This document shows, piece by piece, positions 43,315 to 55,971 of a stretch of 64,000 nt of DNA (its first letter is position 1; each line of letters begins with the position of its first letter). This DNA is from Bacteroidales bacterium (GTDB lineage: Bacteria; Bacteroidota; Bacteroidia; Bacteroidales; P3). The notes under the pieces are model-generated. The model was not told the origin of the DNA. It was given only the letters and a program-made list of their open reading frames with translations, and made no database searches. The stretch spans positions 55,086 to 119,085 of the forward strand of contig JAFTFL010000014.1 of the NCBI GenBank assembly GCA_017449525.1, in the 5' to 3' direction. Both the position numbers and the translations under genes were made by a program.

Positions 43315-43806
43315 GTGGAGTGTTTCCTCGCTTTTTCCGTCCCACGTTACAGCAGTGTCGAGGTGGTGCAGGAGTTACACTGGAATTTATCGTATCTGCG
43401 GTGCGGTGGAATGTATTGCACACCCGACCCAAAGCAGAAACTATACAAATTACGCGATGTGGTGAACGAAGTCAAAGAAGAGTATGGCAACCTGCCTGTC
43501 TATCTCGGAATGAAGAATGCAGACAGTATGAACCGAAGACTGATGCTGAATACCTACGAGGCGAACCATTACACCAATGCAGGGCTTGCCTATCCGCTTG
43601 CCACATGGACACAGAAAGAGGTTCTCGCCTATATGCAGCAGCGTCGATTGCCTACACCAATAGACTACGGAAAGAATACATCGGGTGGCATAGGTTTCAA
43701 TCTTGATTGTTATTTGTGGATGGAAAAGAATGCTCCAGCAGACCTACAGTGAATGTATCAAGTATTTTCGATGTCGCAGCGTATCTTGCTTGAGTATCAT
43801 CACAAT
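43315..43806 (+). pseudogene. PAPS-reductase-like protein, remnant with in-frame TGA
   Basis: The C-terminal part of a phosphoadenosine-phosphosulfate-reductase-family protein of the kind carried by phages and mobile elements: DPKQKLYKLRDVVNEVKEEYG, VYLGMKNADSMNRRLML, GLAYPLATWTQKEVLAYM, then LDCYLWMEKNAPADLQ. A TGA at 43750-43752 interrupts it, and the same frame continues MYQVFSMSQRILLEYHHN, which completes the domain end. The N-terminal half with the nucleotide-binding SGGKDS-type motif is absent. Truncated and nonsense-mutated. Confidence 0.6.
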
Positions 43807-44014: not shown

Positions 44015-44422
44015 CTATTCGTCAAGATACTCAACCAACTCCTCGTCGAATTCTTTCAGAGCCTCGTCCAGTTCACTTCGCATTTCACTCATGGCTTTGT
44101 CGCTGGCGCGCTTCATTTTGTCAACGCGTTCTTCGGTGAATATCTCGCCAAGTCCTTGAAGATAGCTGTTCCCCAAGTGGTGTAGAAAGTCAAGGCCACC
44201 ATGAGTATTAATGTTTGCAATGCGGGCTGTTTGCTCGTCGGTCAACCGACGGTCTTCCAACTTGTCGAGAATTTTGGAAGCGGCCTCGTAGTCGTGTTGC
44301 TCAATGGCTTTTTCGTAGCGGTCAATCAGGTGGTTTGTACTCGATTTGCACGATGTTGAGGTTAGGCCGAGCACAAGCACAGCGCAGACTGCCATGACGA
44401 GACGAACGGTTCTGTATTTCAT
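44015..44422 (-). CDS. Lipoprotein at the end of the tubulin-like/VWA operon
   Basis: 135 residues from the ATG at 44422: signal MKYRTVRLVMAVCAVLVLGL and lipobox TSC. The mature part is mostly helical and acidic (a repeat-like DRYEKAIEQHDYEAASKILDKLE, then a C-terminal EALKEFDEELVEYLDE). I recognise no family. It lies 31 nt after the transglutaminase-like gene and is the last of five co-directional genes, so it is probably the envelope-anchored part of that system. Confidence 0.7.
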   Translation of the reverse strand: MKYRTVRLVMAVCAVLVLGLTSTSCKSSTNHLIDRYEKAIEQHDYEAASKILDKLEDRRLTDEQTARIANINTHGGLDFLHHLGNSYLQGLGEIFTEERVDKMKRASDKAMSEMRSELDEALKEFDEELVEYLDE

Positions 44423-44453
44423 AGTTGATAACGTGTTATGGTTTGACAATTCT

Positions 44454-46211
44454 TTAGTTGAGGAACAGCACGTCGGCAATGTCTTCTTTACGAGTAGAGG
44501 CCATGTCGCCGATGCGGAATCCGTCGCCAGTGGTTTCGCAGAAGAAGTAGGGTAGACCGTCTTTCGAGAGGATGGCGTTGCTGCATCGAGCCGTCATCAA
44601 GGAGGTGTCGGCATCTTTGAATGCCACGCCTACTGCGGCATGGTTCTGTGTGATGACGTATGCCGTTTTGAACCCAGCCTCTACAAAAAGGCTGGCGGCC
44701 AAAACGGCCTTGCAGTCGCAGTCTCCTCGCCTGTCGCAGATGGTCTCATCGGGGTAACGGGCATAGTCGGTAGGGTGGCCTATCTCAGCGCAGTCTTCGT
44801 CGTAGGCATATACAATGTTGGGTTCTTGTGCAAAATCCAATAGCAACTGTAGTTGTTCCAGTTGTGTAAGACCGATGTGTTGGCTCTCATAGTTGACGTA
44901 TGCCACAATCTTGTGCACCAAGCGGCGGTCGGTATATCCTTTGAATAGTTTTTCTACGGCCTTGATATGAGGTAGTGAGTTGGCGCGGAAGGGGTTTTGC
45001 TGACGCAGTGTCTCGATGGCCTGCATGTCCAATCTCAGAGATAGTTGTGCTTGTAGCTGATGTGTAGTACTGTCGAGCGTCCACTGGTACAGCTCGTCGT
45101 GGTATCGTTCAGGGTCAGGATTCTCATCGTCGGGGTCGGGCATGCGAGCCTCGCCATCACCGCCAGTACGGTATAGTTCCATACGCCACGGCTCGTGTGA
45201 GCAGTAGCGCTTGTTGCCTCTCACCCCGATGGCCAGCGCTGCCATCAGCGGGATGAAGTAGTAACTGCCTGTATAGGCGGCCAAGAGCATGGCAAGGTCA
45301 AGACACCACAGGATGGCGCGGTTCATCTTTTGTAGACCTGTATTGCGATTGAGCAGTTGCAGGCGGTAGTTGAAGTTGTGGCTCTTGAAAGACTGCTCTA
45401 TCTTAATCTGTCTCACTATCCACCATACGAGAAAGAAGCATAGGAACGTACCTGTGGTGAAGCCCAGTCGTACGCCCAGCACCGACACTTGGATGGGGTT
45501 GATGCCTACCGCGTAGATGAGGAAAAACAGTGGGGTGTAGAGCATAGCGGACAGGAGGGCAACGTCGTGCCATGCTGCTTTCGTATTGGGTCGGTTTTCC
45601 TCCTCATTGCGTTCGGTCAACGGCATATAGAGCAGTGCGAAGGCACCTACGCGAGCGGAGGGTGTTATCTCGTTGGGACGAGTCTTGAAGCGACCAGTCT
45701 CGGTAATTGTGCCCACTGCCACATGGTTCCCAGCGGCGTCCTGCATCATCAGCAGGGAGTGCGCCACCAGCCATAACTCGTACCAATGTCGTGTACCCTT
45801 GGTACTTGGTTTTTCGTGCTGATTTGCTATGTAGCCTATGGTAATATTCGCTGCATTATATATGGTACCATCTACGCCGACCGCCCCCAAAGTGGTCATC
45901 GTATCGGCCAGTTCTTGAGCCATCGGGTCCTTTTTGACGATGATGGTGGCATTGCCCTGCCCAGCGCGTTGCGAGTAACCCACTTCTCGCAATGCCACTG
46001 GTTTCCCGTGGTCATAGAGGGGAAAACTGTTGTCGGCCTGGTGGCGCACGCTAACGGTGTTGCTCATGCCAAGTTGGGTGCTGCATGTGCATACCGCACG
46101 CTTGCGCAGCAGTCTGATGGCGGTAGCCACAATGCCAGCCAGCGCCATGAGCGAGCCAGCACTAAGCAGCAAATTGGTTGGGGTGAGGAGGTGTTGCCAC
46201 GTATTTGTCAT
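44454..46211 (-). CDS. Membrane protein with transglutaminase-like domain
   Basis: 585 residues. One N-terminal membrane helix (about 13-35), a soluble stretch, four or so helices between about 215 and 340, then a C-terminal domain. The C-terminal domain resembles the transglutaminase/peptidase core: Cys in DRRGDCDCKAVLAASLF (about 500), His in VITQNHAAVGVAF, and a following Asp candidate in ETTGDGFRIGD. It could be a cysteine protease, amidase or cross-linking enzyme; activity is inference. Fourth gene of the operon, 29 nt after its neighbour. Confidence 0.68.
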   Translation of the reverse strand: MTNTWQHLLTPTNLLLSAGSLMALAGIVATAIRLLRKRAVCTCSTQLGMSNTVSVRHQADNSFPLYDHGKPVALREVGYSQRAGQGNATIIVKKDPMAQELADTMTTLGAVGVDGTIYNAANITIGYIANQHEKPSTKGTRHWYELWLVAHSLLMMQDAAGNHVAVGTITETGRFKTRPNEITPSARVGAFALLYMPLTERNEEENRPNTKAAWHDVALLSAMLYTPLFFLIYAVGINPIQVSVLGVRLGFTTGTFLCFFLVWWIVRQIKIEQSFKSHNFNYRLQLLNRNTGLQKMNRAILWCLDLAMLLAAYTGSYYFIPLMAALAIGVRGNKRYCSHEPWRMELYRTGGDGEARMPDPDDENPDPERYHDELYQWTLDSTTHQLQAQLSLRLDMQAIETLRQQNPFRANSLPHIKAVEKLFKGYTDRRLVHKIVAYVNYESQHIGLTQLEQLQLLLDFAQEPNIVYAYDEDCAEIGHPTDYARYPDETICDRRGDCDCKAVLAASLFVEAGFKTAYVITQNHAAVGVAFKDADTSLMTARCSNAILSKDGLPYFFCETTGDGFRIGDMASTRKEDIADVLFLN

Positions 46212-46240
46212 GGTCTGTAATCCTTATAGCAGGAGCTCAT

Positions 46241-48760
46241 TCAGTTGGTTGTAGCATTCAGAAGTTGGTCTATTAGGGTGCGTTGTTCTTCCGACAGCGA
46301 GAGCAGATGGGATGCTATGGCATGCGGACGTGCCGAAGAGGCGAAGTGGTGGGTGAGTAGGTCTGCCCATCTCACCAGGTCAGCCTCCTCAATACGGGTG
46401 TGGCATCTGGTGTTGCCGTCTATTGGGTCGCAGGGGGCAGTGGCTAAAGCCAACAAGTGGCTGTCGAGCAACTCATCGCCAGTGGCAACAGTCTCTACAC
46501 TGCTTTGTATATCGGTCTGCCGTTGAAAGGCTGCGCAATTGTTCTTCAGTAGGGGTGCTGTGCTATTGGCACTCACAAAGAGTTGTAGTTTTGTGTTGTG
46601 AAGGTTGCTTATCATCATGCCGTTGATACTACTCATGCGGAACAGTGGCATCAAGTCGATGTGGTCGGCATACTGTGCGCAGAAGTCGGCAATGTTCGCG
46701 GCCGTGTTGCACAGCAGGCCTTGAAGTAGGGTGTCGGCTTCGTGGGCAAAGGTGTCTATCGGTGTTCGCTCCGCATCCTTTTCAGCGTGGAACCAGTCGC
46801 GACACGAGCCACATGCAAATACTTTGCGCAGAATGCGGCGTGTTTCAGTGGTAGTGAAATCGCTGACGCGAACCCGTTCGCCTTCAGAGGTGAGGATTGC
46901 GGCCTGTGCGGGCGAATTGTTGTCGAAAACGGGGATCTTGCAGAACGCCCCCCCGATCAACGGCTGGTTGAAGCGCGTGTGTGGCATTGGGGTTGTGGAG
47001 TCCGTTTTGGTGGTGCTGGCCGCCTCTGCCCGTCGACCAAGGAACTCTTTCAGTTCGCTGTTGCGTTCAGTCAGTTTGCTGCAGAGGTCGGCTATGCGGC
47101 TGTAGGCTGCAGAGGCCTGCTCTGCATAAAAGGTCGATAACTTCTGCTCTGCATTGTAGAGCGTGCGAATAAGCATCCGCTGCTTGTACTGGCGCACCCG
47201 TTTGTGGTGCATTCGTACGGTGAACCCAATGTGGACTACAAATGGTATCAGCAGTAGGATGGGGCCCCATAGCCAGGGCAGGTCGGACAGTACGCCCAGG
47301 TCGACAAATCGGGGCGAAAGCCAACGCAGCAGGGGCAATCCAAGCAGACACAGAGCTATGCCCAACAGCAGGCTTCTGCTTAGGCTCCCCAAGAAGGTGG
47401 GTTCATTCTTCAGCTCTTCTGCCAGGTCGCGCACGATACGCTGCTGCTCCATCTCTGGTTCGCCGTTGCGACATTGCTCGTAGAGTCCTTGATGTCGGGC
47501 TGGTATCTTGATGATGTCGGGCTTTACGTCGCGCACACTCGTTTCGTTGTTGTGAATTCGTTCCGTCAGCAGCGACAGGAAGTGCTGTTGTTGGCTGAGG
47601 GTGGGGTGGGTGGTCAACTGGGCAGCCAATATATCATAGGTAGTCTCGCTGATGAGTCCCGCAGCCTGCTCCACAAACCTGTTGGCATTGCTCTCTATGA
47701 CGTGGCCGAACTTTTGGGTGAGCATGAACTCCGTTAGCTGTGCATTCTCAAGAAGTTGGGCAGGCATGAAGCGCAACTGTTTGTGGAAGTACTGTGGCCA
47801 CAGCTTCGGATTGAGCAAGTCTCGTATGGGGTGGGGCGAACATTCCTGCATGATGTGGCCAGCCGCATCGGCTATGTCATGGCAGTCGGTCTGCAGTTCC
47901 TTATGCAGCCTATCGGGGTCGATATGATTACGCAGGTGTAGCAGAAGTGCCTCGCTGTCATCCCCCGACATGGACTTCTCGTCAGTGGCGGCCGTGCTGA
48001 GGTGCTGCCACAGTTCGTCGGTTGAGGCTCTGCGGTGCAATTCGGAATGGTAGTATACCGAAGCAGCACCGACCGACAGCATCAACGGCTTGGATGACGA
48101 TTGCCTAATGATGCGGTTCGGCTGCATATCGTCATGGCAGTAGGTAGCCACGAGGTATTGCAGCAACAGTTCGCTGCGGTCGCTACTGTTCAGTTGCTCA
48201 TAGAAGCGAGTAGAGGAGTATTGATTCTCCTGATAAATAGTGAGAATGCGGTAGCATGCTTCGGCATCGGTCAGGGTATTCAACTCCTCAAGTAGAATGG
48301 CGCAACGTGTCCGGAGCGTCCGGTCTTCTATTTGGTTGACCGTTTCGGGCAGGAACAGGAATCCATATAGTTCCAATCCTCGGTTGGCGTGGTCGGACGA
48401 AATGCGTGCCCGTCTGCATTGCAGCAGTGCGGGCAGCAGATGAAACAGTTGTTGAGACTGCTCCTCCACGGCATTGCCCAGTACGCACACTTGTAGGTTG
48501 GTGAACTTTAGACCCTGTGCACGAAGTCGGTTCACACAGGCTTGCCCCTCTGAGGTAATCCAATTTAATGCAGCGCGATAAAAATCGAGACTGTCAACGT
48601 CGTGCACTTTGTCCTCGGACGACAAGGCCGTGTACTGGTCGCTCCACGATGAGTAGTACCAGTATTTATGTATTGACACATCACAGGCTTGCAGCAACTG
48701 CTGCAAGCCTTGATTGTCTTGGGTCGACTGGTTGAGGTTGATTATCCAAAGTGGCTGCAT
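46241..48760 (-). CDS. Large two-helix membrane protein of unknown function
   Basis: 839 residues. The first 455 are soluble (opening MQPLWIINLNQSTQDNQGLQ; possibly an alpha/beta domain with a receptor-like strand VCVLGNA). Two membrane helices follow at about 463-483 and 496-516, then a basic coiled coil and a C-terminal domain with two CxxC-like cysteines (ACGSCRDW). No signal peptide, so the bulk is cytosolic. No family recognised. It lies directly after the tubulin-like gene (33 nt) and could anchor its polymer to the membrane; that is inference. Confidence 0.62.
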   Translation of the reverse strand: MQPLWIINLNQSTQDNQGLQQLLQACDVSIHKYWYYSSWSDQYTALSSEDKVHDVDSLDFYRAALNWITSEGQACVNRLRAQGLKFTNLQVCVLGNAVEEQSQQLFHLLPALLQCRRARISSDHANRGLELYGFLFLPETVNQIEDRTLRTRCAILLEELNTLTDAEACYRILTIYQENQYSSTRFYEQLNSSDRSELLLQYLVATYCHDDMQPNRIIRQSSSKPLMLSVGAASVYYHSELHRRASTDELWQHLSTAATDEKSMSGDDSEALLLHLRNHIDPDRLHKELQTDCHDIADAAGHIMQECSPHPIRDLLNPKLWPQYFHKQLRFMPAQLLENAQLTEFMLTQKFGHVIESNANRFVEQAAGLISETTYDILAAQLTTHPTLSQQQHFLSLLTERIHNNETSVRDVKPDIIKIPARHQGLYEQCRNGEPEMEQQRIVRDLAEELKNEPTFLGSLSRSLLLGIALCLLGLPLLRWLSPRFVDLGVLSDLPWLWGPILLLIPFVVHIGFTVRMHHKRVRQYKQRMLIRTLYNAEQKLSTFYAEQASAAYSRIADLCSKLTERNSELKEFLGRRAEAASTTKTDSTTPMPHTRFNQPLIGGAFCKIPVFDNNSPAQAAILTSEGERVRVSDFTTTETRRILRKVFACGSCRDWFHAEKDAERTPIDTFAHEADTLLQGLLCNTAANIADFCAQYADHIDLMPLFRMSSINGMMISNLHNTKLQLFVSANSTAPLLKNNCAAFQRQTDIQSSVETVATGDELLDSHLLALATAPCDPIDGNTRCHTRIEEADLVRWADLLTHHFASSARPHAIASHLLSLSEEQRTLIDQLLNATTN

Positions 48761-48793
48761 GGGGTAGGTGAGGTACTGACCGTTGTTGGTTGC

Positions 48794-51700
48794 TTATTGG
48801 TTGATAAAGTCGTTGTAGCGCGTCATGCGGTGTGTAATGCTGTCAAGCAGTTCCTCCACCAGTTTGCGCTCATCCAAAGAGATGTCTTCTGTCAGCCGCT
48901 GTTGTAGCGTACTGCACAGTTGTTGCCGAGACTCTTCAAAGTGTGCCAGAAGCAGGTCGTGCTTGTGTTGGTTCAGCATGCTGATGAATTTTCTGAAGAA
49001 GTCCTCTATGTGGCTGTCGGCAAAGTGCTCTTTGAACGCGCGAGCTATGGTGACGTACTGTGATCTCGCGTTGTCGATGGGCACTGTGTAACCTTTGTCA
49101 ATGCGAATGGCTGGCTGCCCGTCATGGTCCTCTATCGAACTCAATGTTGCTATTCTGATGCTGTGCGCTTCTTGAGTAAGAGGGGAGAAAGCATAGCGGT
49201 CCTTCTCGTATTCACTTGGCTTGTACATATAGTCGACAAAGCTGTGTTGCATCTTGTCGAGCAGCATTAGGCGCAGTAGCGTGGTGAGCGACGGGTCTTC
49301 GGTGCGAGGCAGCTGCAGTTTCTCTGCTTCGCCTCCGCTCAGTGCAAACTGCTTGTGGAAGTGGTAGAACTCTTTGTCTTGGCAGGCTTTGTACTTGTTG
49401 CGGATGAAGTCATACGTACGGTAGTAGTTGAACGACATGCCGAGTTTGACGGCTATGATGTACATGAGCGACTTGTCGGCCGAGGGAATGAAGCGCTGGT
49501 TGGGTCGTCCAGCAAAGCCGAAGATGTTCTTTGCCATGTTCTCCGTCTGTGCTACGCAGAACTCACGTTGTTCGAGCGTGCTCTCCATCTGGTTGATGTT
49601 GTAGGAGAAGAATAGTGAGGGCTTCAGTTGCTTCACTATGGTGTCGCGTTCGGTCTGGGGCAGGTTGTCATACATTTCTGCAAGGCCGCTGTCGTTCCAC
49701 CGTGTATAACTGTCCTTCTTGGTCATCAATTGGTTAAACACTTGCTCAGACATGGTCAGCACATCCTCAATATTCTTTTGTGCTCCGATGTTGCGGTTGA
49801 TGAAGAGTTGACGGCGCGTAATGGTCTGCTCGTCTTGCTTCACAATGCTGATGTAGTTGTTTTGTTCCAGTTGTTTTCCGAGGTTCAAGAAGATGTTGTC
49901 CAGGATGTGCTGCAGGCTGTCGCTGCCCTCGCGTACCGGACGATAACCCTCTTGAGGGATAAGCTCAGTGGTGCGATGCACTACGTCGCAGTATATATTG
50001 CTGAAAGGATTCTCTTTTTCCCACCCGTTGTCGTCCACGAAGGTGCAGATGTTTGGTAGGTAAACCGAGGTTACGTCGTCCTTAGCCGAGCGGAATTTCT
50101 GTGCCAATCCTTCTCTGTAGCGATAGCGAGGTCCTTCGGGATTGTTGAGCATCTCCTCTGCCGTCTTGTTGAGGCGGCGTATGTGCAGCAGGATGTCATC
50201 GAGAATGCCGTCGTCGCCGTGGCAGAGAGCACTGAGCATTTCGAAGCACATGTCGTACACCTTGTCTTCCATCATGCTTCTTATCATCTGCGAGGAGCGC
50301 ATGTAGTATTCCTTCACTTGATTGCTGTTGCTCATCTGATTGGCAATGCCAATGCGCTGCATGAGGTTGCCCAAAGCCTCGCCGAGCGAGGTGTGTTCGG
50401 CGTCTTCGCGCAGGGTGGCCAGGTCTTCCTCCTGGGGGCGGGGTGTCTTGCCTGCTACGAGGGTTTGGTACACGTCGTAGAATTCTTTACCTTTCTTGTG
50501 GTAGGTCTGGCACAATTTCTCGCACATGTCGTCGAGATGGCGAAATGTAGTGCCGGCGTAGCGCAAGCCGTAACGCTCTATGTATTCCTCGGCACGGTCC
50601 CACAACTCGGTGCGCAGCGCCTCTTTGATCTGGGCGGTGAAGTTTTCATCCTGTGCAAAGAGTCGGGGCAACTTGTCGGTGATACGCTTGGCATCATCAA
50701 TGGAGGTGTCTGGAAGCCGTGTTTTGAATTTATCGCCGTCCATGAAGTAGTCCTCAGAGTACTCCCGTTCGCGGAGCTCGTGGGCGCGCGACAGGAAGTG
50801 TCCGAGCAGCGAGGTGTGTTTGTCGCGGTCGAAGATGAGACGGCGTATGATGGCATCGAAAGTCGTCTTGGAGGCCTCGGTGGCAACCTCTTCTTTCGGT
50901 TCGCTGCCGACAATGCCGTACTGCAGCATTTCGTATTGAATGCGCAGTTTCCAGTATTCGTCAAACTCGGCCACCGGTTTCTTCAGTGCCACATATCCCA
51001 TGGGCAGCAAGAAGCACTTGTCCTCATGGCCCAGTTGGGCACCGTCGCGGTTGTTGTCCATGAAGGATTCAAATCCAGTGGCACCTTCGCCTTCGTGCAC
51101 ATAGAACAGCATCTCGGCGGTGTTGGAGTACATTTTGCTGAGACTACCCATATTGTTGCCTGTCTCGGTCTGGTAGTCTACGGGTATGCAGCACTCGAAG
51201 GGGCGGTAGGGGTACTGCGTGTCGATGGTGCTGTAACCGTCGAGGAGTGCCAAGCGGTGGAAGAGGTGGCTGTGTTGTGGGTCTTTGGACCAGCACTGGA
51301 TGCTCTCCAACTCGTTCATGACTGCAAAGGCGTTGTTGGGATACCGCTCGTTGTGCGAGTTGTGGTCGATGAAGCATTGGGGCATGTAGAGCACGAGGCA
51401 CACCTTGGGGTCGCCTGGGTCAATGCTCGACTTGTGTATCATGTTGACGTAGTACAGCACATCGTTTACTATGCCGCTTCCTGTTCCGCCAGCGCAGCTG
51501 CACACGACCCAGTAGCATATTTGGTCGCGTTGAGAAGCATTGCTTTCAATCGTGCTGAGGCTACGGATGTCGGCGCGCAGTTTGTCGCAAAATTCTCCTG
51601 CCATGCGGGCAAAGGCGGTGCGCGATTTCAAGCGGAACGCACCAGCACCGAACTGTAGCGCCCGGTCGTCCATACGGAACGCAACGTTCTCGCTGCAGGC

Positions 51701-52024
51701 CTCGGTGATGCGCTGGTTCATCTGCTCGTTTGGGGCATTCTTGGCTTGGCGGTAGATGGCGGCGGGGTTCTGTTGCCCGAGGTTGACCAGCTCCTCGGTC
51801 GATATCATCTTTTTGCGCCCTGTTTCGTAGACGTCGCGGTACTTGCGGTTCTGCCTGTCCAGCTCTCCTTCATCGGTGTCGACGAAGAGGAACCGGTACT
51901 TGTCGTCCATACGGCTCACACGGTCGTCGGTGTTGGCCATACGCTGGTATACCTTAAATTTAACTGCGGCTACGGTCTCGCATCCCGAGCCTCCAAGTCC
52001 AATAAAAATGTGCTTCTTTGCCAT
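48794..52024 (-). CDS. Tubulin/FtsZ-like GTPase (Tubulin_2 type)
   Basis: 1076 residues. The N-terminal domain has the tubulin-family glycine motifs: FIGLGGSGCETV at about 7-18 and the tubulin signature GGTGSG at 179-184 (in CSCAGGTGSGIVND), with an FLFVDTDEGEL strand between. It is much longer than FtsZ (about 380), with some 700 extra helical residues downstream. Family knowledge: FtsZ-like proteins of this kind occur in loci with VWA proteins and are proposed to remodel membranes. Here the VWA gene is immediately upstream (13 nt), supporting one system. GTPase activity and polymerisation are inferred from the motifs only. Confidence 0.82.
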   Translation of the reverse strand: MAKKHIFIGLGGSGCETVAAVKFKVYQRMANTDDRVSRMDDKYRFLFVDTDEGELDRQNRKYRDVYETGRKKMISTEELVNLGQQNPAAIYRQAKNAPNEQMNQRITEACSENVAFRMDDRALQFGAGAFRLKSRTAFARMAGEFCDKLRADIRSLSTIESNASQRDQICYWVVCSCAGGTGSGIVNDVLYYVNMIHKSSIDPGDPKVCLVLYMPQCFIDHNSHNERYPNNAFAVMNELESIQCWSKDPQHSHLFHRLALLDGYSTIDTQYPYRPFECCIPVDYQTETGNNMGSLSKMYSNTAEMLFYVHEGEGATGFESFMDNNRDGAQLGHEDKCFLLPMGYVALKKPVAEFDEYWKLRIQYEMLQYGIVGSEPKEEVATEASKTTFDAIIRRLIFDRDKHTSLLGHFLSRAHELREREYSEDYFMDGDKFKTRLPDTSIDDAKRITDKLPRLFAQDENFTAQIKEALRTELWDRAEEYIERYGLRYAGTTFRHLDDMCEKLCQTYHKKGKEFYDVYQTLVAGKTPRPQEEDLATLREDAEHTSLGEALGNLMQRIGIANQMSNSNQVKEYYMRSSQMIRSMMEDKVYDMCFEMLSALCHGDDGILDDILLHIRRLNKTAEEMLNNPEGPRYRYREGLAQKFRSAKDDVTSVYLPNICTFVDDNGWEKENPFSNIYCDVVHRTTELIPQEGYRPVREGSDSLQHILDNIFLNLGKQLEQNNYISIVKQDEQTITRRQLFINRNIGAQKNIEDVLTMSEQVFNQLMTKKDSYTRWNDSGLAEMYDNLPQTERDTIVKQLKPSLFFSYNINQMESTLEQREFCVAQTENMAKNIFGFAGRPNQRFIPSADKSLMYIIAVKLGMSFNYYRTYDFIRNKYKACQDKEFYHFHKQFALSGGEAEKLQLPRTEDPSLTTLLRLMLLDKMQHSFVDYMYKPSEYEKDRYAFSPLTQEAHSIRIATLSSIEDHDGQPAIRIDKGYTVPIDNARSQYVTIARAFKEHFADSHIEDFFRKFISMLNQHKHDLLLAHFEESRQQLCSTLQQRLTEDISLDERKLVEELLDSITHRMTRYNDFINQ

Positions 52025-52037
52025 GTCTATGAGTATT

Positions 52038-53642
52038 TTATTTCTTGCTCCAATTGACGGTATATTGAGGGATGCCGTTCTCCTTCACTTTGATGGAGGT
52101 GCGGTTGCCCATGCGAAGCGTGCCGTTGGGCTTGCAGCCCTCGCCTCGCAGGCTGCGTACTACGTAGTGTGGATTGCTGAATAGGTGGATGATAGGCGTT
52201 GCGGCCGAGGCTCTGCGCACTGCTATTTCAATCTTCCATTCTACGGGTGCGCTGATGTCGCCCCCCTGTCCGATGGTGAGTTTCTTGCGCCGGCGCACTG
52301 GATAGGGTGGCACCAGTTCAGTGTCGTTCTTCCACACGCTGAATGAGCCCGTGATGTAGGTGCGGCGATTGCGTGCTGATTTGACCAGCATCACGATGAT
52401 GTAGAGTAGTATGAGCAGTAGGCAGATGATGAAAGTGCGCCAGGTGAGTGGGTAGTTGAACACGCGGCCATGCAGGGCTACGGTGGTGGTGTAGGTGGGG
52501 TGGGGCGTTGCGAGCAGCTGTTCCAACTCTTGGCTGTAGGCCACATGGCAGGTGGCTCTAAGGCGTAGGGTGTCGTCTACCGAGCTGAATCTTGGGCGCA
52601 GCCAGCTGCGGTTGTCCTGAATGATGCGGCCGATGCGCTCCACCGTGGTGGGGTGGTCGCCCAGTTGTACAGGCAGGGCGCAGTTGTCGTGGCGGCAGCG
52701 CACCTCAAAGTGTTGCCGCCCGTTGCTGCAGGCTATGCTGTCCAGCACCAGGTTGTTGAATACCTGGTTGGGGTGCCACGTGATGTTGCTTAGCGTTAGG
52801 TTGCCGTCGCGGTCCACTTCGGCGGAGGCACTCATGCGCGTGTCGGTGAGCATGCCTCTTATTATCTGTCTGAACCTATCCTTAAGCATATCGTTCTTGT
52901 GCATGTTGAACCAGTTGGCCAGTGCTTCACCAGTGGTGATGTCCTGCCGTTCGGGATTGAACGAGGCGAACACGGAGAGTACTCGGTCAATGTGGGTGGC
53001 GCGACCTGGCAGGTTTAGGGCTACGATGTTGACGTTCTTGTTCTGTAGCTGTAGGTCGGCTTCTTGCCTACGGGTTTGCCAGTCGGCTGCGCCGCGTCGT
53101 TCGGCTGAGGGGTCGTCTTCAAAGTCAGTGATAATGAAGACGAATTTCAAGTCGTTGCGCCCTGTGCGACTGAGGTCTTTCAGGAGTGCCTGTACCATGT
53201 TGTCGAGGTCGGTGTGGTTGTAGAACCGTTCGCGCTCCTGTTTCGAGGTGGGTTTGTCGTAGAGGTGGTCGGCATACTGTGCCAGGCCTTTGCGCATGTC
53301 GGCGTTGAGCGTGCCGCTGCCGCCGATGTCTATTTTGGCTTCGCCCCCAAACTTGATGAGGCTGACGTGGTCGCCGTCGGGCAGGGCACCGAAGAAGTCT
53401 TTCAGTGCTGGCACCAGTATGTCGCGGTAGCGGTCCATAGTGCCCGATACATCGATGGCGAACACATAGTCGGCATTTTGGTTGCGCAGCTCCTCGCCAA
53501 ACTGTTGCATCAGCTGCGGATAGTCGCGCTTCAACACCTGCAACCCATCCTGCGCATGAGTTGGCGTGGTGATGAGCAGGAACGAAAAAACTACTGTGAG
53601 CGAAGTGAAAAAGCGAAAAACGTGCCTCATGATTTCCTTCAT
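52038..53642 (-). CDS. VWA-domain transmembrane protein, first gene of the tubulin-like operon
   Basis: 534 residues from the ATG at 53642, chosen because it opens a signal peptide (FRFFTSLTVVFSFLLITTPTHAQ). Longer in-frame starts exist, including 53780. The VWA domain starts near residue 58 with an intact MIDAS (DVSGT, Asp64-Ser66-Thr68) and FVFIITDFEDD as the later acidic motif. A membrane helix lies at about 400-420 (FIICLLLILLYIIVMLVK). A 114-residue cytosolic C-domain follows, beta-rich, possibly FHA-like (KKLTIGQGGDI). Predicted topology places the VWA domain in the periplasm and the tail beside the tubulin-like protein. Confidence 0.8.
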   Translation of the reverse strand: MKEIMRHVFRFFTSLTVVFSFLLITTPTHAQDGLQVLKRDYPQLMQQFGEELRNQNADYVFAIDVSGTMDRYRDILVPALKDFFGALPDGDHVSLIKFGGEAKIDIGGSGTLNADMRKGLAQYADHLYDKPTSKQERERFYNHTDLDNMVQALLKDLSRTGRNDLKFVFIITDFEDDPSAERRGAADWQTRRQEADLQLQNKNVNIVALNLPGRATHIDRVLSVFASFNPERQDITTGEALANWFNMHKNDMLKDRFRQIIRGMLTDTRMSASAEVDRDGNLTLSNITWHPNQVFNNLVLDSIACSNGRQHFEVRCRHDNCALPVQLGDHPTTVERIGRIIQDNRSWLRPRFSSVDDTLRLRATCHVAYSQELEQLLATPHPTYTTTVALHGRVFNYPLTWRTFIICLLLILLYIIVMLVKSARNRRTYITGSFSVWKNDTELVPPYPVRRRKKLTIGQGGDISAPVEWKIEIAVRRASAATPIIHLFSNPHYVVRSLRGEGCKPNGTLRMGNRTSIKVKENGIPQYTVNWSKK

Positions 53643-53831: not shown

Positions 53832-53839
53832 CAAAGATA
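53832..53839 (-). promoter_or_regulatory. TATCTTTG -7 box of the VWA/tubulin-like operon
   Basis: A minus-strand match, with a leader of about 185 nt to 53642 or about 50 nt to the alternative ATG at 53780. Confidence 0.6.
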
Positions 53840-54279: not shown

Positions 54280-55971
54280 ATGAACAACGACACCAAGACT
54301 TCCTCCCCTGCGTCGCCGCAGTGCGTGCGAGGGAATATTGTGGACATTCAGCACCGCACCATCCGTCCATCCGTCCTCACGGTGGCTGGTGGCACTATTC
54401 AATCTATCGAGCCGCTGCCGGCCGAGGTGGATAGCCGCCTGCTGCCCTATGTGCTGCCGGGCTTCATCGACGCGCACATTCACATAGAGAGCACGCTGCT
54501 CACTCCTTCGCATTTTGCGCCGTTGGCGGTGGCTCATGGCACCGTGGGCGTAGTGGCCGACCCCCACGAAATCGCCAACGTGATGGGTACTGATGGGCTG
54601 CGTTTCATGTTGAGCGATAGTAAAAAGACGCTGTTCCACTGCTGCTTCATGGTGCCGAGCAGTGTGCCGAGCACCGCTTTCGAAACGGCGGGGGCATCGC
54701 TGTCGGCGGCTCAGACGGCGCGTCTGCTTCAGAAAGAGGATTACTACGGTTTGGCCGAAATGATGAACTACACCGGCGTGCTATCGGCCGATGCTGAGGT
54801 GATGGCCAAATTGGCTGCGGCGCAGGCATGTCACAAGCCGATTGACGGCCATGCGCCTGGGCTGCGTGGCGACGAGGCTCGTTGATATGTGGAGGCTGGC
54901 ATCTTGACCGACCACGAATGCACCGCACTGCCCGAGGCTCAAGAGCGCATAGCCCTGGGTATGAAGATCCTGATCCGCGAGGGCTGTGCCGCACGCGATT
55001 TCGATGCCCTCATGCCGCTCTTGGCACGCTACGACAAGGAACTGATGTTCTGTACCGACGATGCCTATCCCGACGACCTGCAGCAGGGACACATCGATGC
55101 GCTGGTGCGTCGCGCCATTGCGGCTGGCATGCCGTTCTGGAATGTGCTGCAGGCTGCCTGTGCCACCCCCGTGGCACATTACGGGCTGCCCATCGGCCAG
55201 TTGCGCGTGGGCGATAGTGCCGACTTCATTGTGGTGGACAACTTCCGCAGTCTGACTATACTGAATACTTATATTGGTGGCACGAAGGTCTATGACAGGT
55301 ACGAGGGCGTACAGCCTGCTTTGCATGTGCGGACGCGCCGTACCACGGCCGCGTTGCCCAATAATTTCAAGGCGCGGCCAGTGGGTGTGGCAGACTTGCA
55401 GGTGGAGGCCACTGGCAGCAAGATGCGCGTCATAGCGGCACACGAGCGTAGCCTGCTCACCGACGTGCTGACCGTCGCACCTCGGGTGGAGGCTGGCTAC
55501 GTGTTGACCGACACGCGCAAGGATGTGCTGAAACTGGTGGTGCAGAACCGTTATGAGGAGGCTGCGCCGCAGGTGGCGTTCATTCACGGCTTTGGGCTGA
55601 AGCGCGGGGCCCTTGCATCTACCATTGCCCACGACAGCCACAACATTATTGCTGTCGGGGTGTCGGACACCGACTTGGCTGCGGCTATCAATGCGCTGGT
55701 GTCCAGCAAAGGAGGCATGGTGGCAGTGTGTGGCGATAGGCAGGAGTTGTTGCCCCTGCCCGTGGCTGGCCTGATGAGCGACGAAGAGGGAACGGAAGTG
55801 GCGCGTGTGCACGCGCGGCTGAGGACGATGGCTCAACACATGGGCTGCCGGTTCGAAGCACCGTTCATGACGTTGGCCTTCATGGCGCTGCCCGTTATCC
55901 CGCGGCTGAAACTGACCGACCGCGGTCTTTTCGATTCGGAGCACTTCTGCTTCACCCCCTTGTTTTGCTGA
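54280..55971 (+). pseudogene. adeC: Adenine deaminase interrupted by one in-frame TGA
   Basis: Adenine deaminase (amidohydrolase) turns adenine into hypoxanthine. The frame is intact over 564 codons except for a TGA at 54883-54885, within DGHAPGLRGDEAR-stop-YVEAGILTDHEC. Homologues usually have Arg or Asn at about this place, so a CGA-to-TGA transition is the simplest cause. Both sides are otherwise well conserved: metal-binding HIHIEST, DPHEIANV, EMMNYTGVL and the C-terminal GGMVAVCGD. Either a recent pseudogene, a read-through case, or a sequence error. A downstream start could only give an inactive C-terminal fragment. Confidence 0.85.

Follow-up and report, generated by a model that had tools for sequence, protein, structure and literature searches.

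An operon of five genes in a Bacteroidales bacterium encodes a soluble FtsZ-like protein of the Tubulin_2 family together with a membrane protein for which a structure model suggests a second tubulin fold, one that has no GTP-binding loops. The operon lies in the window, by which we mean the whole stretch of 64,000 nucleotides (nt) analysed here (assembly GCA_017449525.1, contig JAFTFL010000014.1, positions 55,086-119,085 of the forward strand; coordinates below are those within the stretch). The explanation we put forward, with about an even chance of being right, is that the five genes specify a machine that spans the envelope, has two tubulin-fold proteins at its core and acts as a GTP-controlled scaffold. 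The gene cluster is a rare one and belongs to bacteria of the gut. The features concerned are as follows.

52038..53642, minus strand: VWA protein, 534 amino acids (Pfam VWA_2), with a signal peptide, a periplasmic VWA domain carrying a metal ion-dependent adhesion site (MIDAS), one transmembrane segment (TM) and a tail predicted to be cytosolic
53439..53453, minus strand: MIDAS motif DVSGT, residues 64-68, from alignment columns
48794..52024, minus strand: Tubulin_2/FtsZl1 protein, 1076 amino acids (Pfam PF13809), modelled as a complete tubulin fold that a helical insertion divides in two
51473..51490, minus strand: GTP-binding T4 loop GGTGSG, residues 179-184, from an alignment of 47 tubulins
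46241..48760, minus strand: membrane pseudo-tubulin, 839 amino acids, modelled as a tubulin fold without GTP loops, its helical insertion carrying a TM hairpin
47216..47395, minus strand: pseudo-tubulin TM hairpin, about residues 456-515, from hydropathy and charge (model helices 456-481 and from 495)
44454..46211, minus strand: multi-TM transglutaminase-like (TG-like) protein, 585 amino acids, with a C-terminal transglutaminase-like domain predicted, with uncertainty, to be cytosolic
44535..44720, minus strand: TG-like motif residues C498, H524 and E559, from an alignment of 44 TG domains
44015..44422 (inner ATG), minus strand: lipoprotein, 135 amino acids, lipobox TSTSC by eye, at the place of a peptidase-MA-like gene elsewhere
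53832..53839, minus strand: candidate operon promoter, Bacteroidota-type -7 box TATCTTTG, motif TAnnTTTG

A Tubulin_2 protein and a modelled pseudo-tubulin

A preliminary description of this DNA had reported five minus-strand genes 13-33 nt apart, and the listing of open reading frames (ORFs) has all of them at 44015-53642, with gaps of 13, 33, 29 and 31 nt from the VWA gene onward. The 1076-residue protein, for which a tubulin fold had been proposed on seeing GGTGSG, matches Tubulin_2 (PF13809) with an E-value of 2.3e-32 and 113.1 bits; Pfam cut-offs for the window proteins are 27 bits for both VWA_2 and Tubulin_2, 20.5 for DUF553 and 23 for Transglut_core. In the T4 loop, G179, G180, T181 and S183 are present in 47 of 47 sequences, G182 in 45 and G184 in 44. 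The structure model, with fold searches, returns the proposed fold complete, interrupted by a helical insertion at about residues 375-680. Sequence and predicted model together point to a soluble tubulin-fold protein with GTP loops. A conventional FtsZ (PF00091, 3.8e-40) is encoded elsewhere in the same genome. The Tubulin_2 match, the GTP loop, the VWA gene in the operon and the separate FtsZ bear out the proposed membership in the group of FtsZl1/VWA systems that Makarova and Koonin described in 2010 (PMC2875224). In genome G000 the ftsZ region occurs twice, at C7:2190-5678 and C14:228198-231686 (L006, L007); the 3,489 bases are identical, so an assembly duplication is likely.

The third gene had been described only as encoding an 839-residue protein with two TMs. 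Both TMs are seen, and hydropathy and charge place both ends of the protein in the cytosol, but there appears to be more to it: a tubulin/FtsZ fold is seen in its structure model and fold searches, while Pfam gives no match. Glycine-rich T1/T4 loops at the expected places are found by eye in none of 44 pseudo-tubulins, and a pattern search of the same set finds GGSG or GGTG in three only, at 528-559. The model suggests, then, that this is another protein of tubulin fold, lacking the GTP loops and held in the inner membrane by a hairpin. A variant of the 839-type protein with an apparent C-terminal VWA domain occurs at L143 13643-16777 (plus strand), and L077 has the same gene; VWA_2 scores 3e-05 in one of 37 members of the 839-type, the assignment to the L143 gene being read by eye.

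Partner proteins

The signal peptide, TM and intact MIDAS first noted in the VWA protein are all present. Pfam assigns VWA_2 with an E-value of 3e-07 (31.3 bits), and DVSGT fits the pattern DxSxT, with the T and D present further on. Across the VWA alignment, both aspartates and the first serine are kept in 44 of 44 sequences, the third position is S or T in 43 of 44, and the T/S position is filled in 44 of 44 (three of 47 rows do not include the region). The ATG at 53642 opens the signal peptide, although the open frame continues to 53834. A TM at about residue 403, and beyond it a tail of about 110 residues placed in the cytosol by hydropathy and charge, predict a periplasmic VWA domain tethered by a single TM.

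The Cys-His-acid core is complete in the multi-TM TG-like protein of the window, which stays under the Pfam cut-offs (DUF553, E-value 0.055, 13.4 bits; Transglut_core, 0.28, 11.9 bits). The assignment comes from the family level: at an E-value of 0.1, DUF553 is found in 23 of 33 members including the window's (best 4e-08) and Transglut_core in 16 (best 2e-05). Dropping two FGE-sulfatase proteins (L107 3-1034, L130 4936-6384) and a domain-less fragment (L120 8801-9346) from the 47 rows of the TG cluster leaves 44 domains, the window's among them. Position 498 is Cys in 16 of these, Ser in 21 and another residue in 7; H524 is kept in 40 of 44, and E or D at 559 in all 44. The transglutaminase-like Cys/His core named in the preliminary description is present in the window, but only 16 of 44 domains retain the Cys; because it is replaced in the other 28, we rejected enzyme activity as the conserved property. 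The domain is predicted, with uncertainty, to lie in the cytosol, which holds if the last two, closely spaced TMs form a hairpin (hydropathy and charge). An FGE-sulfatase domain is found in one of the 33 scanned TG-type proteins, by clustering probably L105 8922-12197 (plus strand), and in two proteins near the operon, L107 3-1034 (plus strand) and L130 4936-6384 (minus strand).

The fifth gene is a lipoprotein gene in the window, as first described, and its lipobox TSTSC is recognizable by eye. As a conserved fifth partner the lipoprotein was rejected, since a membrane-anchored peptidase-MA-like protein holds that place in 32 of 47 loci; hydropathy and charge place the peptidase-like protein in the periplasm. 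Pfam matches among the 19 members scanned are weak (DUF2268 in 4, BSP in 3, Peptidase_MA_2 in 2, SprT-like in 2; best E-value 2e-4), and by eye HExxH is present in 13 of the 19 and lost in 6. No match to the peptidase-MA-like gene was found in the window's own genome (94.65% complete), in a search that had no positive control. The window lipoprotein is 18-25% identical to small lipoproteins (cluster k6) of seven other loci, whose profile reaches it with an E-value of 2e-4 among 621 ORFs, which hints weakly at kinship. The same profile scores higher, 2e-6, with a 149-residue ORF at L083 11139-11588 (minus strand), two genes from a Tubulin_2 gene of another type; a small lipoprotein may recur across Tubulin_2 operon types.

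Taken together, a cytosolic tubulin, membrane proteins and a periplasmic VWA domain, as judged from hydropathy and models, agree with the original view that the products occupy cytosol, inner membrane and periplasm.

Conservation and distribution

Starting from an alignment of the operon's tubulin type, a scan of the genome_contigs collection (one genome per species, 84,980 species) found 47 loci. Most belong to metagenome-assembled genomes (MAGs) that carry the names of Bacteroidales families, and many of the titles mention ruminants, deer or horses. Strand and order, followed by BLAST clusters, are the same for VWA-tubulin in 45 of 45 loci, for tubulin-839-type in 42 of 42, for 839-type-TG in 43 of 43 and for TG-peptidase in 32 of 32, each denominator being the loci that show both clusters of the pair. 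Gaps fall between -60 and 120 nt in 43, 41, 39 and 31 of these, respectively, with medians of 30, 18, 4 and 3 nt. Near-identical pairs (L099/L100, L115/L116, L128/L133, L132/L134) are counted here as loci, not as independent events, and the tubulin of L105 lies outside the ORF cluster, yet was detected by tblastn. Since the query was the window's own tubulin type, conserved order in the 47 loci means order within this type. Profiles built without the window retrieve its first four genes, and L154, which is of the same phylum but more distantly related, encodes in a row a peptidase-like C-terminus, a VWA protein, a tubulin and an 839-type protein (E-values 2e-11, 7e-35, 3e-67 and 8e-10 among 621 ORFs). 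Operon genes occur also in MAGs named Methanomethylophilaceae (L139), Heimdallarchaeota (L140) and Fibrobacter (L123), and may reflect either transfer or wrongly binned contigs.

Within the taxonomic family, Pfam finds Tubulin_2 in 27 of 190 genomes at an E-value of 0.001, 20 of them above the cut-off; within the order the figures are 20 of 393 and 16. The window's own tubulin type, at 1e-10, is found in one of 393 genomes of the order, the window's own, and in two of 395 of the phylum, again including its own. Neither result named in the preliminary description as refuting it was obtained: the model of the 1076-residue protein does have a tubulin fold, and other genomes keep the gene order. 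In the order-wide Pfam survey the operon type was seen in the window's own genome only, with other neighbours beside the other Tubulin_2 genes. The TG-type partner occurs in 5 of the 190 family genomes. Four of the five (G000, G207, G223, G279) make up the set of genomes that have this tubulin type on a contig that continues; the fifth, G198, has the TG-like protein on a tubulin-free contig. In G242, a further genome with this tubulin type, the contig breaks off within the tubulin gene.

In a tubulin tree, the 40 sequences belonging to this type group together (100/100) behind a long stem, and the remaining larger types of operon sit on branches of their own. The tree has 63 rows, leaving out five near-copies, rows shorter than 600 residues and several other Tubulin_2 loci (among them L059, L067, L068, L073, L075 and L089); its sampling favours this type, and the long branches call for caution.

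Operon expression and genomic surroundings

Between 43900 and 54400 the minus strand contains TAnnTTTG once, in the box at 53839 upstream of the VWA gene. We take this to be the Bacteroidota -7 motif, an assumption under which it suggests one promoter for the whole operon, as had been claimed; a sigma-70 promoter scan performs at chance level, with 6 found and 6.6 expected. A scan of the five window proteins with NCBIfam gave nothing useful, searches of PDB sequences with the operon proteins led nowhere except for one weak VWA match (0.009), and a search of viral contigs led nowhere.

Next to the operon, a frame named by eye as adenine deaminase (54280-55971, plus strand) contains one in-frame TGA at 54883-54885 and may be either a pseudogene or the product of a sequencing error. 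A fragment at 43315-43752 (plus strand) resembles, by eye, a PAPS-reductase-type protein. Among relatives, the flanks of L070, L075 and L077 share clusters c18 and c19, and L070 and L077 also c38 and c36, even though the tubulin system of L070 differs; a hotspot or replacement in place is possible.

Proposed mechanism and alternatives

In the envelope-spanning machine that we propose, the GTP-binding tubulin would assemble on the membrane pseudo-tubulin, which would serve as template or cap and anchor the polymer at the inner membrane. A periplasmic ligand would be bound by the VWA domain through its metal, and the domain would communicate its state, via the TM, to the cytosolic tail, thereby controlling assembly; alternatively, the polymer might move or cluster the VWA protein. 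The TG-like domain and the peptidase-like protein, one on each side of the membrane, could bind or process clients. The outcome would be the positioning or remodelling of an envelope structure, and not cell division, since an ordinary FtsZ is present. Tentatively, and with rather less than an even chance, we suggest a more specific form: a two-subunit tubulin, one subunit soluble and GTP-binding, the other an integral inner-membrane pseudo-tubulin, whose polymer or ring would be part of the membrane and be gated by the periplasmic, metal-dependent VWA domain. The bipartite fold (N-terminal half, helical insertion of about 300 residues, C-terminal half) would then be a hidden architecture of FtsZl1.

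Several observations weigh against this interpretation. Profile comparison of the 839-residue protein with the operon tubulin, whole or by domain (hhalign), gives a probability below 4% throughout; with profile similarity to tubulin absent, the second tubulin is argued from one predicted model. With that model, Foldseek alone returns nothing at an E-value of 0.001 or better: the best tubulin-family match has 0.015 (probability 1.00), and helical pore-forming toxins (0.005) rank above it. Topologies were read from hydropathy and charge in the first 14 rows of each family, with no trained predictor. The system is rare, hence not essential to the group. In Synechocystis, moreover, the neighbours within Sll0445-Sll0447 (PMC9880817) are FtsA-like and DivIC-like, a different operon type.

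The operon might instead be an anti-phage or anti-competitor conflict system resembling those with GAP1-N2, in which the VWA protein senses a trigger, a controlled assembly is released and the peptidase-like parts are effectors. Such a system would agree with the rare, patchy distribution and with the strong divergence (the tubulins of 36 relatives are 21-36% identical to that of the window). Firmicute and actinobacterial tubulin/vWA systems have been proposed as conflict systems (PMC7159879), related vWA-MoxR systems are reported with peptidase domains that are often inactive, and three loci with two different tubulin types have common flanking genes. A few flanking proteins match PADLOC models, but the five operon proteins have no PADLOC match below an E-value of 0.001. 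From 136 of 220 flanking proteins, scanned with no control set, 12 PADLOC families emerge at 1e-10, one with two proteins and the rest with one each, and the 25 commonest of 166 flanking Pfam families include acetate kinase, PTA, sigma-70 and ATP synthase c but no transposase or integrase. With few PADLOC matches and many ordinary genes in the flanks scanned, a defence island has been set aside for now. Among the five genes Pfam detects neither a P-loop GTPase nor any other of the listed conflict-system domains, the matches in plasmid and phage collections are three, all weak and confined to the tubulin domain, and the G+C content of the operon (54.0%) resembles that of its surroundings (53.1% for the whole window). 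We consider a conflict system unlikely, while giving it some weight because similar parts occur in proposed conflict systems.

A membrane-remodelling or vesicle system of the kind first proposed for FtsZl1, with a polymer bending the inner membrane, appears to us similarly improbable. The protein family and the VWA partner are the same as in that proposal (PMC2875224), and the modelled tubulin-fold subunit would now supply a direct membrane anchor. Yet the GTPase, kinase and OmpA-like partners are absent from the five genes, none is a shared domain in the four partner families of the relatives, and nothing in the genes indicates vesicles; this reading also overlaps with the envelope-spanning machine, and sequence cannot separate the two. 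Segregation of DNA or plasmids in the manner of TubZ is very improbable, given no recognisable DNA-binding gene among the five by Pfam, two membrane partners and just two plasmid matches, both weak.

Comparison with known systems

Makarova and Koonin described the pairing of VWA proteins with FtsZl1, proposed a membrane-remodelling role and reported GTPase, kinase and OmpA-like partners (PMC2875224). The present operon shares with those neighbourhoods a GGTGSG tubulin N-terminal domain in a protein of about 1000 residues, an adjoining VWA gene, membrane partners and a separate FtsZ. It differs in that Pfam finds no GTPase, kinase or OmpA partner in the five genes (partners frequent there, not obligatory), and in its modelled membrane-anchored second tubulin-fold protein and its TG-like and peptidase-MA-like partners. 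The words "transglutaminase", "peptidase" and "protease" have zero occurrences in the main text of the 2010 paper, which lists lineage-specific partners in additional files. The preliminary description's "Bacteroidota version with different partners" is partly supported: the TG-like partner is there, but the alignment published in 2010 had included FtsZl1 from a Bacteroides (B. caccae), and the lipoprotein is not the usual fifth partner.

The GTPase-centred GAP1-N2 systems (eLife 2020, PMC7159879) likewise have tubulin-domain proteins and a membrane vWA protein with its domain outside, with peptidase-like parts in related systems. The present system is from Bacteroidota, and its five genes include no P-loop GTPase, GAP1 or FNIII protein; Pfam, whose coverage of GAP1 itself is unchecked, finds no GTPase or zinc-ribbon domain of that signature. 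Sll0445-Sll0447 have in common with the window a Tubulin_2 protein. Findings on Sll0445, a Tubulin_2 protein that has been tested, speak for the envelope-spanning machine: putative partners of it belong to pilus assembly and the photosystems, and the mutant shows defects in phototaxis and in electron transport by photosystem II (PMC9880817).

A further parallel is an operon type of Bacteroidales loci L070 and L071, with a signal-peptide protein having a DxTxS site and one TM, a Tubulin_2 protein and a membrane protein with a cysteine-peptidase-type domain. Here the domain is TG-like; there it is papain (C1; 7e-18 and 3e-16), so that a cysteine-peptidase-type domain beside VWA and tubulin recurs. 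The tubulins of L070 and L071 form a separate branch of the tree. The VWA assignment in that type is weak, with no Pfam match in L070 and 0.005 and 0.042 in relatives L086 and L088. The papain proteins, 1215-1248 residues long, follow the VWA-like and Tubulin_2 genes at L070 2547-6293 (minus strand) and L071 8188-11835 (plus strand). The commonest Tubulin_2 operon type seen (L060, L061, L065, L066, L072, L079, L081-L083, L087, L089) has a small 3-TM protein in many loci, then Tubulin_2 and clusters c5, c2, c4, c3 and often c1, with a weak MORN domain in one c5 member and a clear PEGA domain in one c1 member.

The 2010 paper found the C-terminal domain of FtsZl1 without detectable tubulin similarity and left open whether FtsZl1 keeps the tubulin parts required for filaments, and a reviewer of it raised the question of how an FtsZ-like protein in the cytosol might act with periplasmic partners (PMC2875224). 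The models suggest answers: a C-terminal tubulin domain appears in the model although undetected there, so that the whole tubulin fold would be present, with an insertion dividing it, and the membrane would hold another subunit of tubulin fold. Membrane association of FtsZ-like proteins as such is not new, because a Sulfolobus FtsZ-like protein is reported to have N-terminal TM helices (PMC2875224); of a membrane-embedded tubulin-fold partner, no description was found in the open-access literature of the one library searched. If the models are right, the operon supplies two defined proteins for purification and a new means by which a tubulin can be attached to a membrane.

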